Assembly: GCA_027623995.1 (NCBI GenBank)
Contig: JAQBUF010000020.1
Coordinates: 1-50,036, forward strand
Length of the DNA: 50,036 nt
Origin: Nitrospirota bacterium
GTDB lineage: Bacteria > Nitrospirota > Nitrospiria > Nitrospirales > UBA8639
Direction of reading: 5' to 3'
The notes under the pieces were generated by a model. That model made no database searches. It was given only the letters and a program-made list of their open reading frames with translations, and was not told the origin of the DNA. This document shows positions 30,057 through 49,336 of the stretch, one piece after another (the first letter of the stretch is position 1; each line of letters starts with the position of its first letter). A program made the translations under genes and the position numbers.

Positions 30057-30248
30057 ATGCGCAAAAAACCCCTCATAGAAACAAACCCATTTTTCAAAAC
30101 CCCGGAGAAATACCGGAAGGCGTTGGTTACCAACATTGCCACCTCCACCGCCATTGAAACCGGCATGCCAGTCGAAGAGATTGCTCGAATGTTATCTGAA
30201 AAGGAAAAGGCTAAACCAGTTAAGAAGTCGAAAGGCTCTGCTCAATAA
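30057..30248 (+). CDS. Small protein with Fic-inhibitor-like motif (putative antitoxin)
   Basis: 63 residues, lysine-rich, with NPFFKTPEKYRKALVTNI and then STAIETG followed by a short acidic helix (PVEEIARMLSEKEK). The STAIE block matches the inhibitory motif (S/T)xxxE(G/N) of Fic antitoxins except that Thr stands for Gly/Asn. The Fic protein at 30884 carries SSTAIEGN, the full motif. The gene is tail-to-tail with the next Fic gene and their ends overlap by 29 bases, an odd layout for a toxin-antitoxin pair. Antitoxin function is inference. Confidence 0.65.
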   Translation: MRKKPLIETNPFFKTPEKYRKALVTNIATSTAIETGMPVEEIARMLSEKEKAKPVKKSKGSAQ

Positions 30249-30864
30249 TTTCCTCAAAAAGATTCTCCATGGGTGCATATTGTTTATCTAGCCCGGAGCG
30301 AATCGCCGCAAAGTATGCCATTTTCTTCTCTCCCGCCAGCACACCAAAATCTAACAAGGGCAACCCGGCTTGAAGGGCCATGAGAGTAGAAAGCAAACGG
30401 GCAAGCCGTCCATTCCCATCTCGAAACGGATGAATCAGCACCAACTCGACGTGCGTTTCCGCCAATGCTTCTAAGATTTCTTGGCGGGTTGGAAAACGGC
30501 ACGGTGTCCAGCGCCCCAACACGTCCCGTTCAAATTGCGTCATCAAAGATGAGATATGCGCTGCTGCCGCGAATAGAAAATCGTCCTTGCTCACATTCAC
30601 CTGCCGATAGCGCCCTGCCCAATCGTAGATATCTCCAAGCCAGATTCGGTGACAGTCGCAGAGGTCCTCGGTGGTAAATCTATGAGACTCGTCGTACTTT
30701 CGGACCAGAATGTCTAACGCCTTTTCCAGGGATCGAGATTCGGCGTTATCCATCATCGATTTTGACGTAATGCCCAGCCAATTTTTCAGCACCTGCTTCT
30801 TTGAGCCAGGCTCAAACTGAGCCTCGGGCAGATCCGAAGCATCATAGCGATCATCTGATGTCAC
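30220..30864 (-). CDS. Fic/DOC family protein (AMPylator-type)
   Basis: 214 residues with the complete Fic motif HPFRDGNGR at 145-153. The N-terminal helix bundle includes the LGDIYDWAGRYR block typical of the stand-alone Fic group (as in VbhT/Fic-1). No internal (S/T)xxxE(G/N) inhibition helix is evident, so regulation in trans by a small antitoxin would be expected. The start is a GTG at 30864 backed by GAGGAG 6 bases upstream. Such proteins transfer AMP to target Tyr/Thr; the target here is unknown. Confidence 0.93.
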   Translation of the reverse strand: MTSDDRYDASDLPEAQFEPGSKKQVLKNWLGITSKSMMDNAESRSLEKALDILVRKYDESHRFTTEDLCDCHRIWLGDIYDWAGRYRQVNVSKDDFLFAAAAHISSLMTQFERDVLGRWTPCRFPTRQEILEALAETHVELVLIHPFRDGNGRLARLLSTLMALQAGLPLLDFGVLAGEKKMAYFAAIRSGLDKQYAPMENLFEEIIEQSLSTS

Positions 30865-30883
30865 TACATACTCCTCTTTCCTA

Positions 30884-31888
30884 TCACGACAAAATATATC
30901 GCCCGGACTTCCTCGTTCCCACTCGTTGGACCAAACCTGCCTCCAGGAGTGGATTCAACAAATCCATCGCACCCTGTTTAGAAACGCCAATACCTTCACG
31001 GATTTCTTGAGGCGTAAGGCTCTGTCGGTCGCGTAGAAGGCGGAGAAGTTGCTCTTGCTTAGGCCGCAACACGATTTTTTTCTTTCCTGCGCCAGCAGAG
31101 AGATGCTGAATCCGATCCCACACTTGTTCCAACGAAACGTGAATAGCTTCTGCAGCGTATTCCAACCAATGTGTTAAATCACAGCCATCCTTTCGGACCG
31201 ATGCAAGAGCTGTGTAATACCGGCTACGGTCTTTCCAATAAAAATCATCTACGGAAAAGATATGGTGGGTATCAAAACCGCGGCGATACAATTCCCAGAG
31301 TGCCAGTGCTCGACCAGTGCGACCGTTGCCATCTGCAAAGGGATGGATATCCTCAAACTGATAATGAATGATCGCCGACGAGATCACAGGAGACCACGGT
31401 GAGGAATTTGCATTCCACCAATCCAACAGCTCAGCCATTAAACCAGAGACCATCTCAGGCGGAGGTGGAACATACTGACCGACCTGCACGTGAATATCTC
31501 GATACCGACCAGCTTTTCCTTGGTCCATCACATCTGACGCCAAGAGGGAATGAAGTGAAAAAATTTCTTTATGGGTGATGGGCTTATCTGATGGAAGCTT
31601 TTCAATGAAGCGCAGACCAGCGAAATAGTTGAGCACCTCACGCGTTGCACGTTGAGGTTCAGTCGGAAGGGCCTGCCCCTCTTCTAACAGGCGGACTTGT
31701 TCAAGCGTGAGAGGATTCCCCTCGATGGCCGTAGAGCTGTGAGTGTTTCGAACTCGAGCATCCTTTTGGAGGGTCGGAATCCAGGGAACCTGAATTGTCG
31801 CCGAGAGAATCTTCTCTCGAAATGCGGAGATTTCCTCAATAAGGCTCAGCAATTGAGGGGTTATCGTGAATTTAGGCTGAAATGCCAT
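30884..31888 (-). CDS. Fic family protein with N-terminal autoinhibitory helix and C-terminal winged helix
   Basis: 334 residues from the ATG at 31888 (MAFQPKFTITP); an in-frame TTG at 31915 adds nine residues. Order: Fic_N domain with the inhibitory motif SSTAIEGN near residues 51-58, the Fic core with HPFADGNGRTGR, then a C-terminal winged-helix-like region (LTPQEIREGIGVSKQGAMDLL). This is the class II Fic layout, in which the internal Glu blocks ATP binding. It ends 20 bases before the next Fic gene on the same strand, so the two may be one unit. Confidence 0.93.
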   Translation of the reverse strand: MAFQPKFTITPQLLSLIEEISAFREKILSATIQVPWIPTLQKDARVRNTHSSTAIEGNPLTLEQVRLLEEGQALPTEPQRATREVLNYFAGLRFIEKLPSDKPITHKEIFSLHSLLASDVMDQGKAGRYRDIHVQVGQYVPPPPEMVSGLMAELLDWWNANSSPWSPVISSAIIHYQFEDIHPFADGNGRTGRALALWELYRRGFDTHHIFSVDDFYWKDRSRYYTALASVRKDGCDLTHWLEYAAEAIHVSLEQVWDRIQHLSAGAGKKKIVLRPKQEQLLRLLRDRQSLTPQEIREGIGVSKQGAMDLLNPLLEAGLVQRVGTRKSGRYILS

Positions 31889-31988
31889 GTACCTATCGTA
31901 ATAGCGCTCTAGCAATAGGTCAAGTGTAAGTCAAGTTATGAGCCAAGCAGGGATTGAGGGGAAATCTATTAATGGAAAATGGGGAGTT

Positions 31989-32201
31989 TTAGTCCCCTGC
32001 GACAAGTTCGGCTTCTAGAGGATGGTCTTTTCGAAAACGGCTCACGCCCTGTACGCTAAACCCTAGCAGCCGCCCCTGCTCATCGACACGTTCCATGACT
32101 GCATCGTGGGCAGTCGAACGCATGAAACCTGGGGCATCCTTGAACTGAACTTCCAAAAAATCCCCTTCAGGATCAAACCAAACTTTTACTTTTTCGGCCA
32201 C
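31989..32201 (-). CDS. DUF2283 family protein (first copy)
   Basis: 70 residues with the DUF2283 pattern: VWFDPEGDFLEVQF, then DAVMERVDEQGRLLGFSV. GTG start at 32201 behind AAGAGA. It lies 27 bases after an XRE-type regulator gene on the same strand. DUF2283 proteins are often paired with DUF4258 partners in toxin-antitoxin-like loci; this copy has an XRE partner instead. Confidence 0.87.
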   Translation of the reverse strand: MAEKVKVWFDPEGDFLEVQFKDAPGFMRSTAHDAVMERVDEQGRLLGFSVQGVSRFRKDHPLEAELVAGD

Positions 32202-32227
32202 ATCATTTCTCTTGCGTTAAAAGGTTT

Positions 32228-32569
32228 TTACGCGGCAGCATGGCGGCCTTTGCTATCTCCGCCTTTTATCGTGCGGGCGAGGTCAGCTGGCTTGGCACCC
32301 AACAGGAGTAAAGAACTGACTAACAAGTCCATCGAAACAGAGGGATCGCCAGACTCCATCTTAGCCACACGAGATTGACTGGAACGAAGGCGCTTGGCTA
32401 ACTCGACCTGCGACAGCCCTCGGCGTTGGCGGCGATCGCGCAGACTGCGGCTTAAGGCCAACTTCAACTCGATAAGTGCCGCATCGGCATCTGACAAACC
32501 CAAGAACTCCTGGGCTGACCCAAGGGCCCACCCAGCGGATTCGAGTTTTTCTCGTTTACTTCTTTTCAA
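32228..32569 (-). CDS. XRE-family HTH regulator (HigA-like antitoxin)
   Basis: 113 residues. HTH_XRE spans about residues 45-100 (RDRRQRRGLSQVELAKRLRSSQSRVAKME). Basic tail GGDSKGRHAAA. The start is a TTG with no clear ribosome binding site, so the exact N terminus is uncertain. Resembles antitoxins of the HigA type, but no HigB-like toxin gene precedes or follows it. It is followed by a DUF2283 gene. Confidence 0.87.
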   Translation of the reverse strand: MKRSKREKLESAGWALGSAQEFLGLSDADAALIELKLALSRSLRDRRQRRGLSQVELAKRLRSSQSRVAKMESGDPSVSMDLLVSSLLLLGAKPADLARTIKGGDSKGRHAAA

Positions 32570-32635
32570 TTAGATAAACCCATCTTGGCTATGTACCAGC
32601 GAGCTGAGAGGAATCATACTCAATAAGTCTGTGGC

Positions 32636-32836
32636 CTAGCCTGTCGTTTGAAATTCGACTTTATCTGCTTCAGTGACACGTTTGGATGCATCCAGAATTT
32701 CAATAGATACCAGATTGCCACCTTCATCATAATCCAGGATGACTCCGGGCTTGTCCTCGTCGCTTTCAGAAACCGAAGCCCCGTCTTTAAGGATCACGCT
32801 AAGGACATCCGACTTCTGATCATAAGAAACTTTCAT
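32636..32836 (-). CDS. DUF2283 family protein (second copy)
   Basis: 66 residues (MKVSYDQKSDVLSVILKDG, VILDYDEGGNLVSIEIL). The ATG at 32836 has GGAGGG 7 bases upstream, which decides the start over the in-frame codon at 32851. Its start overlaps the stop of the DUF4258 gene by 4 bases (ATGA). The two form a compact pair with toxin-antitoxin-like organisation. Confidence 0.92.
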   Translation of the reverse strand: MKVSYDQKSDVLSVILKDGASVSESDEDKPGVILDYDEGGNLVSIEILDASKRVTEADKVEFQTTG

Positions 32837-33117
32837 AACTCTTCCCTCCAATATTTCAAAATCTTGCTTGTCCGATATGCAGTAACAACTTCTGCAGGCT
32901 GACGATCTATGTCCACAAAGACTCGAACAAGGAATTGTCTAGGAGGATGACCCAATTGAAGACGAGATTGCAAGACATGTCGCCCTGGTCGAACCTCAAA
33001 CCATTGTTCTGGTTCATTCAGGACCGCACCGACAATCGCCTCACTCAGCCCCCTCCTGGCCATTTCAAATAAGGCATGGTCATTAAAAACAAATTCGGAG
33101 ATCGGATCAGGTGCCAT
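32833..33117 (-). CDS. DUF4258 family protein (putative toxin-like partner of DUF2283)
   Basis: 94 residues, DUF4258 pattern: N-terminal NDHALFEMARRGLSEAIVGAVL with the conserved His, then RFLVRVFVDIDRQPAEVVTAYRTSK. GAGGAG lies 10 bases before the ATG. DUF4258 is related to small RelE-like or HTH-free toxin folds, and its coupling with DUF2283 is a known but poorly characterised gene pair; which member is toxic is not established here. Confidence 0.9.
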   Translation of the reverse strand: MAPDPISEFVFNDHALFEMARRGLSEAIVGAVLNEPEQWFEVRPGRHVLQSRLQLGHPPRQFLVRVFVDIDRQPAEVVTAYRTSKILKYWREEL

Positions 33118-33466
33118 GGTTATTCAACTCCTCTGCAAGAATACCATCTTTCAGAGTTTATTTTCGCAACTTGTCCAAAGGGACCCAATCGCCGGGGGTG
33201 CGTTCGTATGTCCAGAAGGTCCAGCCGTTGCAGCTTGGGCGGTTGCCCGAAGCTGACGGACTTTTTCAATGCTTCCCTTCGCTCAAACAGCCCTCGCCGA
33301 AAAGTCGATTCGAGGCGGCGGCCCAGCCGCGCCCAAGGCAAGTGAAAAATTGGATAACTGACTCATTGATGATCGAAGCAAAACACGGCAGAAGCGAGGT
33401 TTGAAGTATGAGTCAACAAAAGACCCGCCCCCGCAACGTGCAGATGAATTTGGTGTGATAGAGCGT
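33118..33466. other. Gene-free stretch of 349 bases holding repeat copy 2
   Basis: No protein-like frame is supported. The short open frames here sit in repeat sequence. The stretch holds the second copy of the dispersed repeat (33271-33350, reverse orientation) and its weak continuation toward 33150, next to the truncated helicase. Confidence 0.7.
33271..33350 (-). repeat. Dispersed intergenic repeat, copy 2
   Basis: On the minus strand this reads GCCTTGGGCGCGGC, later CGAATCGACTT and CTGTTTGAGCG, matching copy 1 at 8251-8330. The copies are about three-quarters identical. Confidence 0.8.
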
Positions 33467-34327
33467 TCATTTTTCAAGGGAAACGTGAATCTCATATTTT
33501 TTTTGTAAATGCCGTACATGTGTTTCCAACGAAGGCTCGCTCGCCCAGGTGCGCCAAAGTTCAGGATAGGAAATACTTCGAAAGTGAATTTTTGATTGGG
33601 AAATACCTGATTGAAAACCCGCAATCTCTCCACGATGCGTTTGGCAGATTTCAACTTCTTGCCCATTATCTGGCTCCCAAAAGAGATGATGATCATCAAT
33701 CAACGTGGATAGCCCAAAAAGCTCCAAGAGTGAGTTCTGGAGAGGCGTCGCGGTCAATAACAGCTTGCGGGAGTCTTCAGTGGCCCACCGTAAGCCTTGG
33801 CCAACTTTGTTGCTGGGTCTATAGGCATTGCGGAGCTTGTGCGCTTCATCAATCACGACGAGGTCCCACTGGATTGCCTTTAACTCTTCGCGCAACGCAT
33901 TCCCATAGTTGAATGAGAGGATGATGACGGCTTTCTCGGCGAGTGGGGCCCGCCCACTGCGTTGGGCCTCGCGAAAGGCCTTTGCATCCAAAACAAGGCT
34001 AGGCAAGTTGAATTTCTCCTCTAGCTCTAGCGCCCACTGCTTTCGAATGGACGCAGGGCAAAGAACCAGAAGTCGCCGCTTGCGTTCCGCCCAGAACTGG
34101 CAGAGCACGATGCCCGCCTCGATCGTCTTTCCTAGACCAACCTCATCGGCCAAGATCACGCCCTTTGAAAGCGGTGATTGTAGAGCAAACAGAGCCGCCT
34201 CGATCTGGTGGGGATTCAGATCCACAGCTGCGTCGAAGAGTGACATGGATAACCGGTCCATGCCGTTTACAGACCGGCGGGTCAAGTCATGCGCAAAGTA
34301 TTTGGCGTGATAGTCTGTTAATTTCAA
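33467..34327 (-). pseudogene. Truncated SNF2-family helicase (N-terminal part only)
   Basis: 286-residue frame. Residues 1-215 are a normal SNF2/DEAD-box start: DEVGLGKT (61-68), DEAH at 160-163, and TATPLQNS near 192-199. After ILADD-like LSTLIDDHHLFW (about 215) similarity stops and the frame continues with non-family sequence to residue 286. The second RecA lobe and the C-terminal domain are missing, and no downstream frame supplies them before the repeat at 33350. It would not be a working translocase. Full-length relatives occur in defence and restriction contexts. Confidence 0.8.
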
Positions 34328-34491
34328 CTGTGGGGAGACCTATGAGGGTTAAAATGAACGAGAAATATGACCCTATTAAAGCTTCATCCATGGCTCAGCC
34401 ATGCTACCTAAGCGCTGGGGAAAATTAAAGAGGGAAAAGAAAGAGTGGAGCCCCGATTAAAAATGTCGGGAATGACCGATTCCTCAATCAT

Positions 34492-34561
34492 TCATACCTC
34501 AACCCCTCGGCGATGACGCCTTTGGTGACCCAGCGGGCTGGAAGGTAGGCGGCGGCTACTT
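34492..34561 (-). pseudogene. Relic of the 3' end of a second FtsX/MacB-type permease
   Basis: On the minus strand this encodes AAYLPARWVTKGVIAEG then LRYE and a stop, residue-for-residue identical to the last codons of the permease at 35329-37902, but with about eight base differences that are all synonymous. It is therefore not a recent direct duplication but the remnant of a diverged paralogue. It sits on the far side of vapBC from the intact permease gene. Confidence 0.8.
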
Positions 34562-34582
34562 TACACCCTTTTTCAAATGCAC

Positions 34583-34999
34583 TTACCTAGACAGACTACT
34601 AAGATAATCCGAGGGTGAAATGGTCTGGTTCTGAAACTTTTTACGCAATTTTGTGTCGTAGGTAACGAGTCCGGTATTTTCCCGTTCGGCTAGTGCGACA
34701 AACAGGGTGTCGTAAGCTGGATGATTTGCTGCAACGGATAACTCAAGGGCACGTTCCCAAAGTTCGTCCGCGGGTGTTGCATGGGTGATTAGGGCATCCG
34801 CATCTGTTAATACCTCAATTCCCACCTCAAGGGTCAATTGGTTTTCGCGCGTCCATTGCCACACCACATTCACGAGTTCGGCTCGGAAGCTATCGGGGAC
34901 AATGATGTCTTCGGCATTGGTTAATACCGCGAGAGATTCGTCACGAAAACGTGTGACTCCGAGGAGCGCGTATGCGAAGACCATGGTATCTACGACCAC
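34583..34999 (-). CDS. vapC: VapC-like PIN-domain toxin
   Basis: 138 residues, PIN-domain RNase. The acidic active-site residues are present: Asp4, Glu41, Asp97 and Asp115. GTG start at 34999 with GAGG 8 bases upstream. It lies 13 bases after its antitoxin gene. VapC toxins cleave tRNA or rRNA; the target is unknown. Confidence 0.92.
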   Translation of the reverse strand: MVVDTMVFAYALLGVTRFRDESLAVLTNAEDIIVPDSFRAELVNVVWQWTRENQLTLEVGIEVLTDADALITHATPADELWERALELSVAANHPAYDTLFVALAERENTGLVTYDTKLRKKFQNQTISPSDYLSSLSR

Positions 35000-45479: not shown

Positions 45480-47342
45480 ATGATATTGCAAGAACCCAAC
45501 CCCATCGAACCCATTACTCCAATCTGCAAAAAACTTCTATTTTTTTTACTGTTGCTGCACACATTTTTTGTCATTCGTGGCGACTCCCCCATTATAGAAG
45601 GCAGCCTTTTTGGCCCTGATTCCTACATGCATTTAAACAGAGTGTTGGCGCTCATTGAAAATGGGGATTGGTATAATTCACTTTTTCTCAGAAGCAATGC
45701 TCCCTATGGGGAGGAGTTACATTGGACGAGACTCTTCGACATCATCCTATTAACCGGCACAGGCTTATTTCTTCCTTTCTTGCCCTTTAGTGACGCTCTT
45801 TACCTATCTGGAATCCTTGTCAGTCCAATCCTTCAAGGGATAGCGCTCATTGGTTTGCTTTGGGGAATCGCACCCTATTTATCAAAACAGCATCTTGTAT
45901 TGTCCGGAGGACTTTTTGTCTTACAACCAGCCATTTTCGGTTATTGTATGGCAGGAAAGGCTGATCATCACAGTCTCATCCTCGCGCTATTGATGTGGCT
46001 TCAGGCATGCACGCTTCGCCTACTGCTCACTCCTACTCACAATAAAATGTGTATTTCTGCCGGGATATTCGGTGGGCTACTGATTTGGACAAGTATCGAG
46101 GGCTTTATTTTTCTCGCCATATCCCTCGTAACTTTAACGGCTTGTTGGGGGGTATACGGAAAGGAATTCAGTAAAAAGGGAATATTGTTTGCGACAGGCC
46201 TTGTCATCACCGCAACTCTGGCCTTAGCCATTGAGAGGAGGCCTTGGACTGGATGGGGCATTCTGGAGTATGACCGGTTTTCCATTGTACATTTGGCGGC
46301 TCTGGTTCTGATTTGGCTTTTCTGGATAACGATTTATGTGCTACAGGATCATCTCCGCTTCTCTTTGAACCGAACCCTTCGGGTCTCCATTGTTTTTTCT
46401 GGTGCTCTTATTGCCGCCATTATTCAATGGCTATTGTTCCCTGATTTTTTTCTCGGACCCCACGCGAATCTGGACCCGCGTGTGATTTCGCTTCATTGGG
46501 ACCAAATAACAGAAACACAACCCCTGGTCTCCTTGAAACCTTTTTGGGTAGGTCCACTTTTCCTCTATTTAGGCATTGCACTTCTAGGCATACCACACCT
46601 TGTGACCCTCTTATGTCGAACCCTTCCGCGAGACCAGCGCATGCTCTGGAGTCATATTGGAATGGCCTTGCTCATATTGACTCCACTCGCCATCATTCAA
46701 ATCCGTTCGGCTATCTATGCCACGGCATTGTTAGTCATTCCTTATGGCAACTTTCTCCTCGAGAAAGGAGTATCGATTAACACTCTCATTCGAACGGTTT
46801 TTTATCAAAGACTATTGCAAATAATTTTGGTGTTTATTGGATGCATTGGCTTTACGGTAATTGGAGCAGTGGTCATGGAACGCGAGAAGGCTTTTCTCAA
46901 AGCGCCGCACGGTGAATGTCCAATCACCCCTTTATCAAATTATATCAATGGCTCTGAACTGCTGAATGGAGAAAAAAGAACAATTCTCACCTTTGTAGAT
47001 TTTGGCCCAGAGCTTCTGTACCGCACACCGCATAGCGTTCTTTCCACCCCGTACCACCGCAATATGTCTTCGATAATCGATACCAATACGATCATGCAAG
47101 CCAAAACGAATCAGGAAGCCCAAGCTATTCTCGAATCAAGGAAGGTTGATCTCATTTTGCTCTGTCCAAAATCTAGCGAACGTCGCTATTATTCCCTGAC
47201 CACGGGGGAAGCAAAGTTTTATGACAATCTCATGGCAGGACAACTGCCAACATGGATAAGCCCGCTTTCGCTTCCAGAGGAATTATCGAAACATTTTAAA
47301 TTGTTCGCCATCGCCAATCCTTCAGAGCCGGCTACCGACTGA
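45480..47342 (+). CDS. STT3-like GT-C membrane protein (oligosaccharyltransferase-related)
   Basis: 620 residues, about 11-13 membrane helices. The first external loop has GPDSYMHLNR (residues 45-54), equivalent to the acidic-x-Tyr-His-Arg loop of STT3/PglB/AglB, with GEELHWTR soon after. A further loop has MAGKADHHS, equivalent to the DHH metal-binding region of OSTs. In the soluble C-terminal domain, TFVDFGPELLYRT stands where STT3 has WWDYG, so the acceptor-peptide site differs and N-glycan transfer to Asn-X-Ser/Thr is uncertain. It is followed by a DPM1-like gene, suggesting a lipid-linked sugar donor. The family assignment is by motif only. Confidence 0.78.
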   Translation: MILQEPNPIEPITPICKKLLFFLLLLHTFFVIRGDSPIIEGSLFGPDSYMHLNRVLALIENGDWYNSLFLRSNAPYGEELHWTRLFDIILLTGTGLFLPFLPFSDALYLSGILVSPILQGIALIGLLWGIAPYLSKQHLVLSGGLFVLQPAIFGYCMAGKADHHSLILALLMWLQACTLRLLLTPTHNKMCISAGIFGGLLIWTSIEGFIFLAISLVTLTACWGVYGKEFSKKGILFATGLVITATLALAIERRPWTGWGILEYDRFSIVHLAALVLIWLFWITIYVLQDHLRFSLNRTLRVSIVFSGALIAAIIQWLLFPDFFLGPHANLDPRVISLHWDQITETQPLVSLKPFWVGPLFLYLGIALLGIPHLVTLLCRTLPRDQRMLWSHIGMALLILTPLAIIQIRSAIYATALLVIPYGNFLLEKGVSINTLIRTVFYQRLLQIILVFIGCIGFTVIGAVVMEREKAFLKAPHGECPITPLSNYINGSELLNGEKRTILTFVDFGPELLYRTPHSVLSTPYHRNMSSIIDTNTIMQAKTNQEAQAILESRKVDLILLCPKSSERRYYSLTTGEAKFYDNLMAGQLPTWISPLSLPEELSKHFKLFAIANPSEPATD

Positions 47343-47361
47343 TAACCCAGAACCGATTCTT

Positions 47362-48063
47362 ATGAAACATTTCTCCAATACCGTTTCCATCATCATTCCT
47401 GTATTCAATGAGCGTTTGACCATTTTAGAAATTATCAAAAAAATACAATCGATCCCTTTGCACAAAGAAATAATTATCGTGGACGATGCTTCCACTGACG
47501 GAACAAGAGAGTTACTAAAGGCTATCGAAAGTGAGGAAGGAATCAGAGTCCTCTATCACCAAAGGAACATGGGCAAAGGGATGGCGATCAGGACCGCCGT
47601 CCCTTACGTGACCTCAGAAATTTTGTTAATTCAGGATGCTGATTTAGAATATGACCCAAACGACTACCAGAAACTCATAGCCCCCATTCAGAATGGAACC
47701 TCCAACGTCGTGTACGGCACCCGAGAAATTTTACCTGGCAATACCTACTCGCATCTCACCTTTTTTCTAGGTGGAAAGTTTCTGACATGGCTCACGAACA
47801 TCCTCTATGGATCACACCTAACTGATATGCCAACATGTTATAAGGCATTTAGAACTGAAACTTTCCAGTCCCTAGAACTCACTTGTCAACGGTTTGAATT
47901 CTGCCCAGAAGTCACAGCAAAGTTGCTCAAAAATGGACAGACGATTGTAGAAGTACCCATAAATTATTATCCAAGGAAGATTAAGGACGGCAAGAAGATT
48001 CGATTCCAAGACGGCTTGCAGGCGATATACACATTGCTGCGCCTAAGAATTTTTGAAAAATAA
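47362..48063 (+). CDS. Family 2 glycosyltransferase (polyprenyl-phosphate sugar synthase-like)
   Basis: 233 residues, GT2/DPM1-like: VSIIIPVFNERLTILEII, VDDASTDGT and DADLEYDPNDY, with the metal-binding Asp residues. No membrane segment. In DPM1-type enzymes it makes polyprenyl-phosphate hexose, the donor used by GT-C enzymes such as the upstream protein. It begins 20 bases after that gene, likely one transcript. Confidence 0.93.
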   Translation: MKHFSNTVSIIIPVFNERLTILEIIKKIQSIPLHKEIIIVDDASTDGTRELLKAIESEEGIRVLYHQRNMGKGMAIRTAVPYVTSEILLIQDADLEYDPNDYQKLIAPIQNGTSNVVYGTREILPGNTYSHLTFFLGGKFLTWLTNILYGSHLTDMPTCYKAFRTETFQSLELTCQRFEFCPEVTAKLLKNGQTIVEVPINYYPRKIKDGKKIRFQDGLQAIYTLLRLRIFEK

Positions 48064-48205: not shown

Positions 48206-48580
48206 CTATTCCGAAGTTTTGACTAATGTCACACGCACTATTTCCGGGTCAAGATCGTAGATCCTGCCACTGGCGAAATCATCAACGAGCCCCGTCCCTA
48301 AATTAAAAACATTGTACCAGGCAAACCCATCGAGCGATTCTTTCAGCAGAATACGTTCGGGTCGATACCCGGCCTTTTCAATAGTCAGAATATAGTCACC
48401 GGCCCCGCGTGGGATCTTGACCACATCGGGGGAATAGTAGGTGCGTCCCGCGACAATGAGTTTGGCCCTTGGTGGATCGGTAAACACCGGCACGCTGACA
48501 ATATTCGAATTGGCCAACGAGGCGCAGCCCACACCAACCACCAGGAATAACAGCACCATCACGCTACGAAGCCAGGTCAT
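48206..48580 (-). CDS. PEGA-type lipoprotein (third of three)
   Basis: 124 residues. Signal peptide ending in the lipobox GVGC, then a PEGA-like beta domain (DPPRAKLIVAGRTYYSPDVVKIPRG, ILTIEKAGYRPERILLKES). Starts inside the previous gene (4-base ATGA overlap); GGAG precedes the ATG. Tethered to the envelope, probable surface or peptidoglycan-facing module; function unknown. Confidence 0.88.
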   Translation of the reverse strand: MTWLRSVMVLLFLVVGVGCASLANSNIVSVPVFTDPPRAKLIVAGRTYYSPDVVKIPRGAGDYILTIEKAGYRPERILLKESLDGFAWYNVFNLGTGLVDDFASGRIYDLDPEIVRVTLVKTSE

Positions 48581-48966
48581 GGTCCGGTCTCCTGTTGAAA
48601 GGTTTCATTGGGGATCAACACGAAGTCTACGGTTTCGGGCTCAACATCATAGGCCGCACCGGTTCGCATGTCGGCAAGAAAGCCGACCGGAGTCACATTG
48701 AGCCCCCACAGGTAATCAGGGGATTGTCGAAGAAAGACATGCCCTGGACGATACCCCTTTTTATAAATCGAGAGCTTGAAATCCCCGGACTTGCGTGGTA
48801 CCCAGACGAGTGCCGGAGACATGTAGGTATAGCCTGCAAGATGGAGAGTGGCCCCAGGTGGATTGGTAGTGACGGGTACATGAGTCCACGGACCGGGGTA
48901 GAGCGTGGACGCGCAACCGCCTAGCGCGCAGAGTAAGATAATGGCGAGGATGCGAATTGTAGGCAT
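48577..48966 (-). CDS. PEGA-type lipoprotein (second of three)
   Basis: 129 residues. Lipobox ALGGC and the same beta domain (NPPGATLHLAGYTYMSPALVWVPR, KLSIYKKGYRPGHVFLRQS). It lies 7 bases after the first lipoprotein gene and overlaps the third by 4 bases. Confidence 0.88.
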   Translation of the reverse strand: MPTIRILAIILLCALGGCASTLYPGPWTHVPVTTNPPGATLHLAGYTYMSPALVWVPRKSGDFKLSIYKKGYRPGHVFLRQSPDYLWGLNVTPVGFLADMRTGAAYDVEPETVDFVLIPNETFQQETGP

Positions 48967-48973
48967 TGTTCTC

Positions 48974-49336
48974 TCATCGCTTTTTCAACTGTAGATGAAT
49001 GTCTTGGGGGGCAAGGCTCATGCCCGCACCATTGAGCACATCAACGGGGCATGCCAGACAAAGATTCAACACATTCAAGGCAACCCACGGCTCTTCCGTT
49101 TCGGTCACCATGACTTGCTCAGGGTGGTAGCCATGCTTGGAAATGATGACTCGAAAGTTCCCTACACCACGAGGCAAAAGAATTGATGCGGGAGTGATAT
49201 AGGTGTTGGCATTGGCTTGGACAATCGCGCCCGGCGGGTTCGTGGTGACATGGATGGGGATATCTTCCATATCCGTCACGATGCTCGCACACCCGGTAGC
49301 AAGAACTAGAGACCATAGCAGGGAGAGCCGCTTCAT
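48974..49336 (-). CDS. PEGA-type lipoprotein (first of three)
   Basis: 120 residues. Lipobox LATGC and a PEGA-like domain (TNPPGAIVQANANTYITPASILLPRG, NFRVIISKHGYHPEQVMVTETE). A Cys pair near residue 95 (CLACP) is unique to this member. First gene of the set; a TACTATACT-like element lies just upstream. Confidence 0.88.
   Translation of the reverse strand: MKRLSLLWSLVLATGCASIVTDMEDIPIHVTTNPPGAIVQANANTYITPASILLPRGVGNFRVIISKHGYHPEQVMVTETEEPWVALNVLNLCLACPVDVLNGAGMSLAPQDIHLQLKKR

Follow-up and report, generated by a model that had tools for sequence, protein, structure and literature searches.

The window analysed here, a stretch of 50,036 nucleotides from a member of the Nitrospirales, carries two adjoining genes on the + strand, at 45480..47342 and 47362..48063. 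The first encodes a 620 amino acid GT-C protein, which is assigned to an STT3-fold bacterial branch lacking WWDYG on the basis of its fold, a match to TIGR04154 below the cut-off, and its relatives. The second, which follows after a gap of 19 bp in the ORF list of the window, encodes a 233 amino acid GT2 glycosyltransferase resembling the polyprenyl-phosphate-sugar synthases DPM1 and AglJ, based upon profile matches and a partner with 62% identity in the sister genome G008. Both ORFs had been placed here by the first-pass annotation, which also quoted the strings GPDSYMHLNR, ADHHS and TFVDFG from the GT-C protein; these were located at residues 45-54, 161-165 and 504-509, respectively. The three lipoproteins which it described nearby on the opposite strand were also found (48206-49336), all with lipoboxes and with PEGA-type, mostly weak, Pfam matches. 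These small proteins are mutually alike, and their genes stand in tandem, overlapping or almost so. The G+C content of the pair is 45% and 42%, compared with approximately 51% in two upstream genes, possibly a sign of transfer. Elsewhere in the window, a short ORF at 33467-34327 resembles the start of an SNF2-type helicase and is apparently truncated; it is surrounded by Fic-like and toxin-antitoxin-like ORFs (30220-34999; all read by eye).

Enzymes of the STT3/AglB type attach sugars to proteins in archaea and eukaryotes. The AlphaFold2 model of the GT-C protein, for which a 22-row alignment of relatives was the input, had a pLDDT of 89 and a pTM of 0.90. Foldseek gave 22 matches with E<0.001, comprising catalytic subunits of oligosaccharyltransferases (OSTs) and three entries for the C-mannosyltransferase DPY19; the best matches were all OSTs. 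Using VIA-align, AfAglB of Archaeoglobus scored Z 29.8 over 528 residues (3.3 A), followed by STT3 (24-28), PglB (~23), ALG12 and ArnT (~21) and DPY19 (~20). On nearest fold, an ArnT (GT83) type was rejected (Z ~21 vs 29.8). The structural match spans residues 14-619 and thus includes the C-terminal domain, so that the predicted structure possesses the OST architecture, a GT-C membrane part plus a mixed alpha/beta C-terminal domain, over nearly its full length. This periplasmic domain of approximately 140 amino acids (46920..47339) is of the central-core-only type, residues 477-612 matching the corresponding domain of a short AglB (3vu0) with Z 13.2 over 127 residues. The first-pass annotation had allowed for a structure in some GT-C family other than the OSTs; since the best structural matches are OSTs, the model groups the protein with the latter.

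The family is almost invisible to Pfam. No match to STT3 (PF02516) was found in the window protein, to which Pfam assigns no family, and one of 22 relatives reached this model, at 4e-4. The NCBIfam model archaeo_STT3 (TIGR04154) gave 33 bits (E 1.7e-8) against a curated cut-off of 450 and was matched by 19 of the 22 relatives. Searches with the single window protein yielded zero relatives among PDB sequences (phmmer) and nothing among genome contigs; relatives emerged with the alignment as query. In the species genomes collection this query located 24 loci, distributed among the Nitrospirota, Alpha- and Gammaproteobacteria, Gemmatimonadota, Chloroflexota and Myxococcota. The protein is encoded by 10 of 59 genomes of the same order (the window's own included; the others are 34-45% identical to it), the family is present in 44 of 289 alphaproteobacterial genomes, and viral contigs contained no relatives. 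A tree of 54 members placed all its Nitrospirales members in one clade (support 97/94), within which the window protein is sister to its counterpart from G008. We conclude that the window protein is an enzyme with the STT3 fold and belongs to a bacterial branch which is widespread but poorly annotated; because the WWDYG feature is absent, it is classed as a variant and not as a canonical OST. No paper describing this family was found in the open-licence literature. In several genomes (L032, L034, L040, L102, L112, L113, L114 and L116) two STT3-like genes lie head to tail in tandem, perhaps reflecting two acceptors or two donors, and the copy in G313 (L072/L100) contains one in-frame stop codon, which may indicate a pseudogene or a sequencing error.

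The catalytic centre can be compared with that of AfAglB, in which the metal ligands are Asp47, Asp161 and His163, the first DXD-type motif is Gly-Asn-Asp and the second, Asp-His-His, contains the last two ligands; Glu360 of TIXE stands behind water molecules, and His81 and Arg426 are near the phosphate site (PMC8342417). The first DXD-type loop of the window protein, GPDSYMHLNR (45612..45641), includes Asp47, which equals the AfAglB ligand Asp47 (PMC8342417) and occurs in 53 of 53 aligned relatives. The second motif, Asp162-His163-His164 (45963..45971), is likewise Asp-His-His and is present in 51, 52 and 50 of 54 members, respectively. QITE (46503..46514), of the TIXE/SVSE type, lies in external loop 5 (EL5), and its Glu345 is Glu in 53 of 54 members and Asp in one. 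His81 of an HWTR motif (45720..45722; His in 47/53) and Arg409 (46704..46706; 54/54) are proposed counterparts of AfAglB His81 and Arg426, paired by order and context, not coordinates. The 54-member alignment therefore contains two OST hallmarks, namely a DXD-type metal motif in each of external loops 1 and 2, and the TIXE/SVSE Glu in EL5. As judged from this alignment, the catalytic residues of AglB are kept, near-invariant, across the family.

A profile of 22 relatives matched 3vgp and 3vu0, which are C-terminal domains from two of the short AglB proteins of archaea, with E 2-3e-4, and aligned the FVDFGPELLYRT stretch of the family on the WWDYGNWILYVS stretch of short AglB. FVDFG (46992..47006), which is degenerate in the family, thus occupies the place of WWDYG, as the first-pass annotation had read by eye. 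WW was found at this position in none of the 54 members, and the Asp position is variable (D 23, N 15, F 7, S 4). Conserved instead is a family-specific motif ending in TPYHRN (47046..47063), downstream of the WWDYG position, with His526 in 50 of 54 and Arg527 in 46 of 53 members. In OSTs, Trp-Trp-Asp and a DK/MI residue make up the Ser/Thr pocket (PMC3703281). Neither a conserved Lys nor MxxI was seen in the alignment, variant DK motifs being placeable only with coordinates (PMC3703281). The alignment argues that the Trp-Trp-Asp pocket reading Ser/Thr at +2 is lost throughout the family, in keeping with the earlier proposal that this motif had been replaced, and suggests that recognition of the acceptor probably does not depend on the NXS/T rule.

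The second ORF matches GT2 family PF00535 (Pfam, 107.7 bits), and its best NCBIfam model is AglJ (TIGR04182). It was rejected as an AglJ equivalog, the score of 132 bits being below the curated cut-off of 325; the match covers the first 218 of 293 model positions, and no membrane helix was predicted. The fold of one protein and the GT2 profile matches of the other agree with the earlier description of an STT3-type GT-C protein adjoining a polyprenyl-phosphate-sugar synthase. The conservation of the pair is partial: in G008 the GT2 gene again directly follows the STT3-like gene, but this exact arrangement was seen only there, the other relatives having a different, longer AglJ-like GT2 near the STT3-like gene, often convergent. 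Each of the 11 Nitrospirales loci that were scanned, including those of the window and G008, has an AglJ-like GT2 within approximately 3 kb, as do loci in Dehalococcoidia, Gemmatimonadetes, Inquilinus, a gammaproteobacterium and some Alphaproteobacteria. ArnC-type control GT2s prefer a different model over AglJ. The use of AglJ-likeness to recognize a partner of STT3 was rejected, as GT2s that are unlinked, or linked to ArnT, score equally; the label therefore tells the chemistry (a polyprenyl-phosphate sugar) and not the partner. At L060 and L061 an AglJ-like GT2 close to that of the window directly adjoins an ArnT-like GT-C gene (the GT-C being read by eye). AglJ is the archaeal synthase which starts the glycan on dolichyl phosphate, and the AglJ-AglB way of working may thus be a fair analogy for the window pair.

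Pilus genes recur around the enzyme in its relatives. Eight relatives' loci (L012-L019) and L027 contain two to five Flp pilin genes beside the enzyme and a GT2, with Tad genes (TadE/TadG-like, CpaA, CpaB or CpaC) alongside as far as the stretch extends. At a Kiloniellaceae locus (L028) the enzyme adjoins genes for TadG-like, Flp, prepilin peptidase and CpaB (208.7 bits) proteins, and in three further Alphaproteobacteria (G411, G283 and G509) its gene and those for Flp pilin, CpaA, CpaB and CpaC are divergent. Flp pilin genes thus lie near the enzyme at nine Nitrospirales and four alphaproteobacterial loci; most alphaproteobacterial loci of the enzyme are away from Tad genes. On the 54-member tree this linkage requires four changes, at least three of them forced by supported branches. 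TadE occurs in 32 of 44 alphaproteobacterial genomes with the enzyme vs 91 of 245 without it (p 2e-5), and in 9 of 10 vs 16 of 49 same-order relatives (p 0.001), both tests ignoring shared ancestry and genome size; nine of the ten genomes of the remaining loci also have TadE. No pilin gene lies beside the window pair, and a search of the window genome found neither TadE nor Flp pilin, so a universal Tad partner for the family was rejected. The recurrent adjacency in relatives suggests a pilin-glycosylating enzyme. In another Nitrospirota family (G087; L053:4684-8760) the gene order is pilA, a distant STT3-like protein (752 amino acids) with APWSFG at the WWDYG place, and an AglJ-like GT2, an arrangement resembling an operon for the glycosylation of a type IV pilin.

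The first-pass annotation had named the neighboring lipoproteins as candidate acceptors. This was abandoned, since such genes are not beside the enzyme at any other locus inspected, whereas pilin genes recur. The window genome encodes type IV pilin-like proteins, including one of the PilA type (C35), none of them near the pair, and the type IV pilin of this organism is one candidate acceptor. In G008, a convergent gene adjoining the pair encodes a TPR-like protein. Among the 29 Flp pilins near the enzyme at 13 loci no enrichment of NXS/T was seen; 22 have none in the mature part, and in the remaining seven, confined to two loci (five in G013 and two in G015), it lies near the C-terminus. Should Flp be the acceptor, NXS/T could not serve as a general rule, in agreement with the loss of the pocket.

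We believe, on balance, that the two genes together make up a small unit for protein glycosylation from a lipid carrier, for which a pilin is likely to be the usual acceptor in relatives, and that the window GT-C protein is probably a protein (pilin) glycosyltransferase. The GT2 would make a polyprenyl-phosphate sugar in the cytoplasm; after transfer across the membrane by a putative flippase, the STT3-fold protein would act in the periplasm, passing this sugar or a short glycan extended from it to an exported protein. Transfer of a single sugar by the pair, as first proposed, is plausible. Catalysis may employ a metal held by Asp47 and Asp162-His-His, together with Glu345 of EL5, as in AglB, and selection of the acceptor would probably be independent of the NXS/T rule. 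In the relatives, the usual acceptor would most likely be a pilin of the Flp/Tad kind and, in one distant case, PilA. From the fold, the conserved motifs, the gene neighborhoods and the co-occurrence we infer protein glycosylation, pilins as usual acceptors and a linkage outside NXS/T, and likewise the activity and the donor. More tentatively, this widespread branch of the STT3 superfamily may have abandoned the NXS/T sequon and turned into pilin glycosyltransferases, mostly for Flp/Tad pili, fed by a polyprenyl-phosphate-sugar synthase and perhaps linking the sugar through Ser/Thr or another residue rather than sequon Asn.

It is rather unlikely that the GT-C enzyme works in the manner of ArnT, whose acceptor is lipid A, and delivers its lipid-carrier sugar to a lipid or to a polysaccharide of the envelope, the STT3 fold reflecting ancestry only. 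Such a role would suit the missing acceptor pocket, the absence of a Tad pilus from the window genome and the relatives of the window GT2 outside G008, which adjoin ArnT-like GT-C genes or stand alone; against this, the ArnT match is clearly below those of OSTs (Z ~21 vs 30), the protein retains the C-terminal domain which in OSTs contributes to the peptide site (Z 13.2 to 3vu0), and the association with pilin genes recurs. We regard as improbable an ordinary N-glycosylating OST which still uses NXS/T through an unusual pocket: the residues credited with activation of the Asn amide, Asp47 and Glu345, are retained, and the C-terminal sites in the G013 and G015 pilins agree with it, but WW is missing in all 54 members, Asp is not conserved and no site exists in 22 of 29 nearby Flp pilins, including all those of 11 of the 13 loci. 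That the pair is adjacent by chance, the GT2 serving another pathway, seems very improbable even though the exact pair occurs in only two genomes and GT2 relatives exist in genomes without an STT3-like gene, since the same broad group of synthase recurs beside the STT3-like gene across phyla, while each genome of the order has roughly 2-19 matching GT2s.

The closest known systems include archaeal AglB, especially the short AglB-S1 and AglB-S2 of A. fulgidus (591 and 593 amino acids; PMC3703281), which the window protein resembles in fold, length and a C-terminal domain of the central core only. The likeness in Asp47, Asp-His-His and the TIXE-type Glu refers to residues described for the long AfAglB (PMC8342417), and the window protein differs in lacking WWDYG and in being bacterial. 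Bacterial PglB (Campylobacter, Desulfovibrio; GT66) shares the fold (Z ~23) and the general catalytic layout, but the structural match is weaker than to AglB, the WWDYG pocket is lost in the window protein and no pgl-type locus was seen around its gene. The archaeal dolichyl-phosphate-sugar synthase AglJ provides the best model for the paired GT2, which differs from it in the low, partial match and the lack of a predicted membrane helix. ArnT shares the GT-C fold and uses an undecaprenyl-phosphate sugar; it is the weaker structural match, and its acceptor is lipid A. TfpO and TfpW of Pseudomonas aeruginosa are pilin-linked glycosyltransferases, the latter also called a GT-C enzyme (PMC11841053); they are likened to the window family by description only, and their substrates are PilA-kind type IV pilins rather than Flp.

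A report on Aggregatibacter describes Flp1 as glycosylated (PMC6182317); RcpC, earlier implicated in Flp glycosylation, has since been shown to play a structural part in extending the pilus (PMC12307814). Since no paper naming an Flp glycosyltransferase was found, the WWDYG-less family is a testable candidate in the lineages which carry it. STT3-type enzymes are understood as readers of NXS/T. If our reading is true, a common branch in bacteria which shares the catalytic centre of these enzymes but not their sequon pocket would illustrate how the choice of acceptor can be rewired, and could prove useful in glycoengineering.
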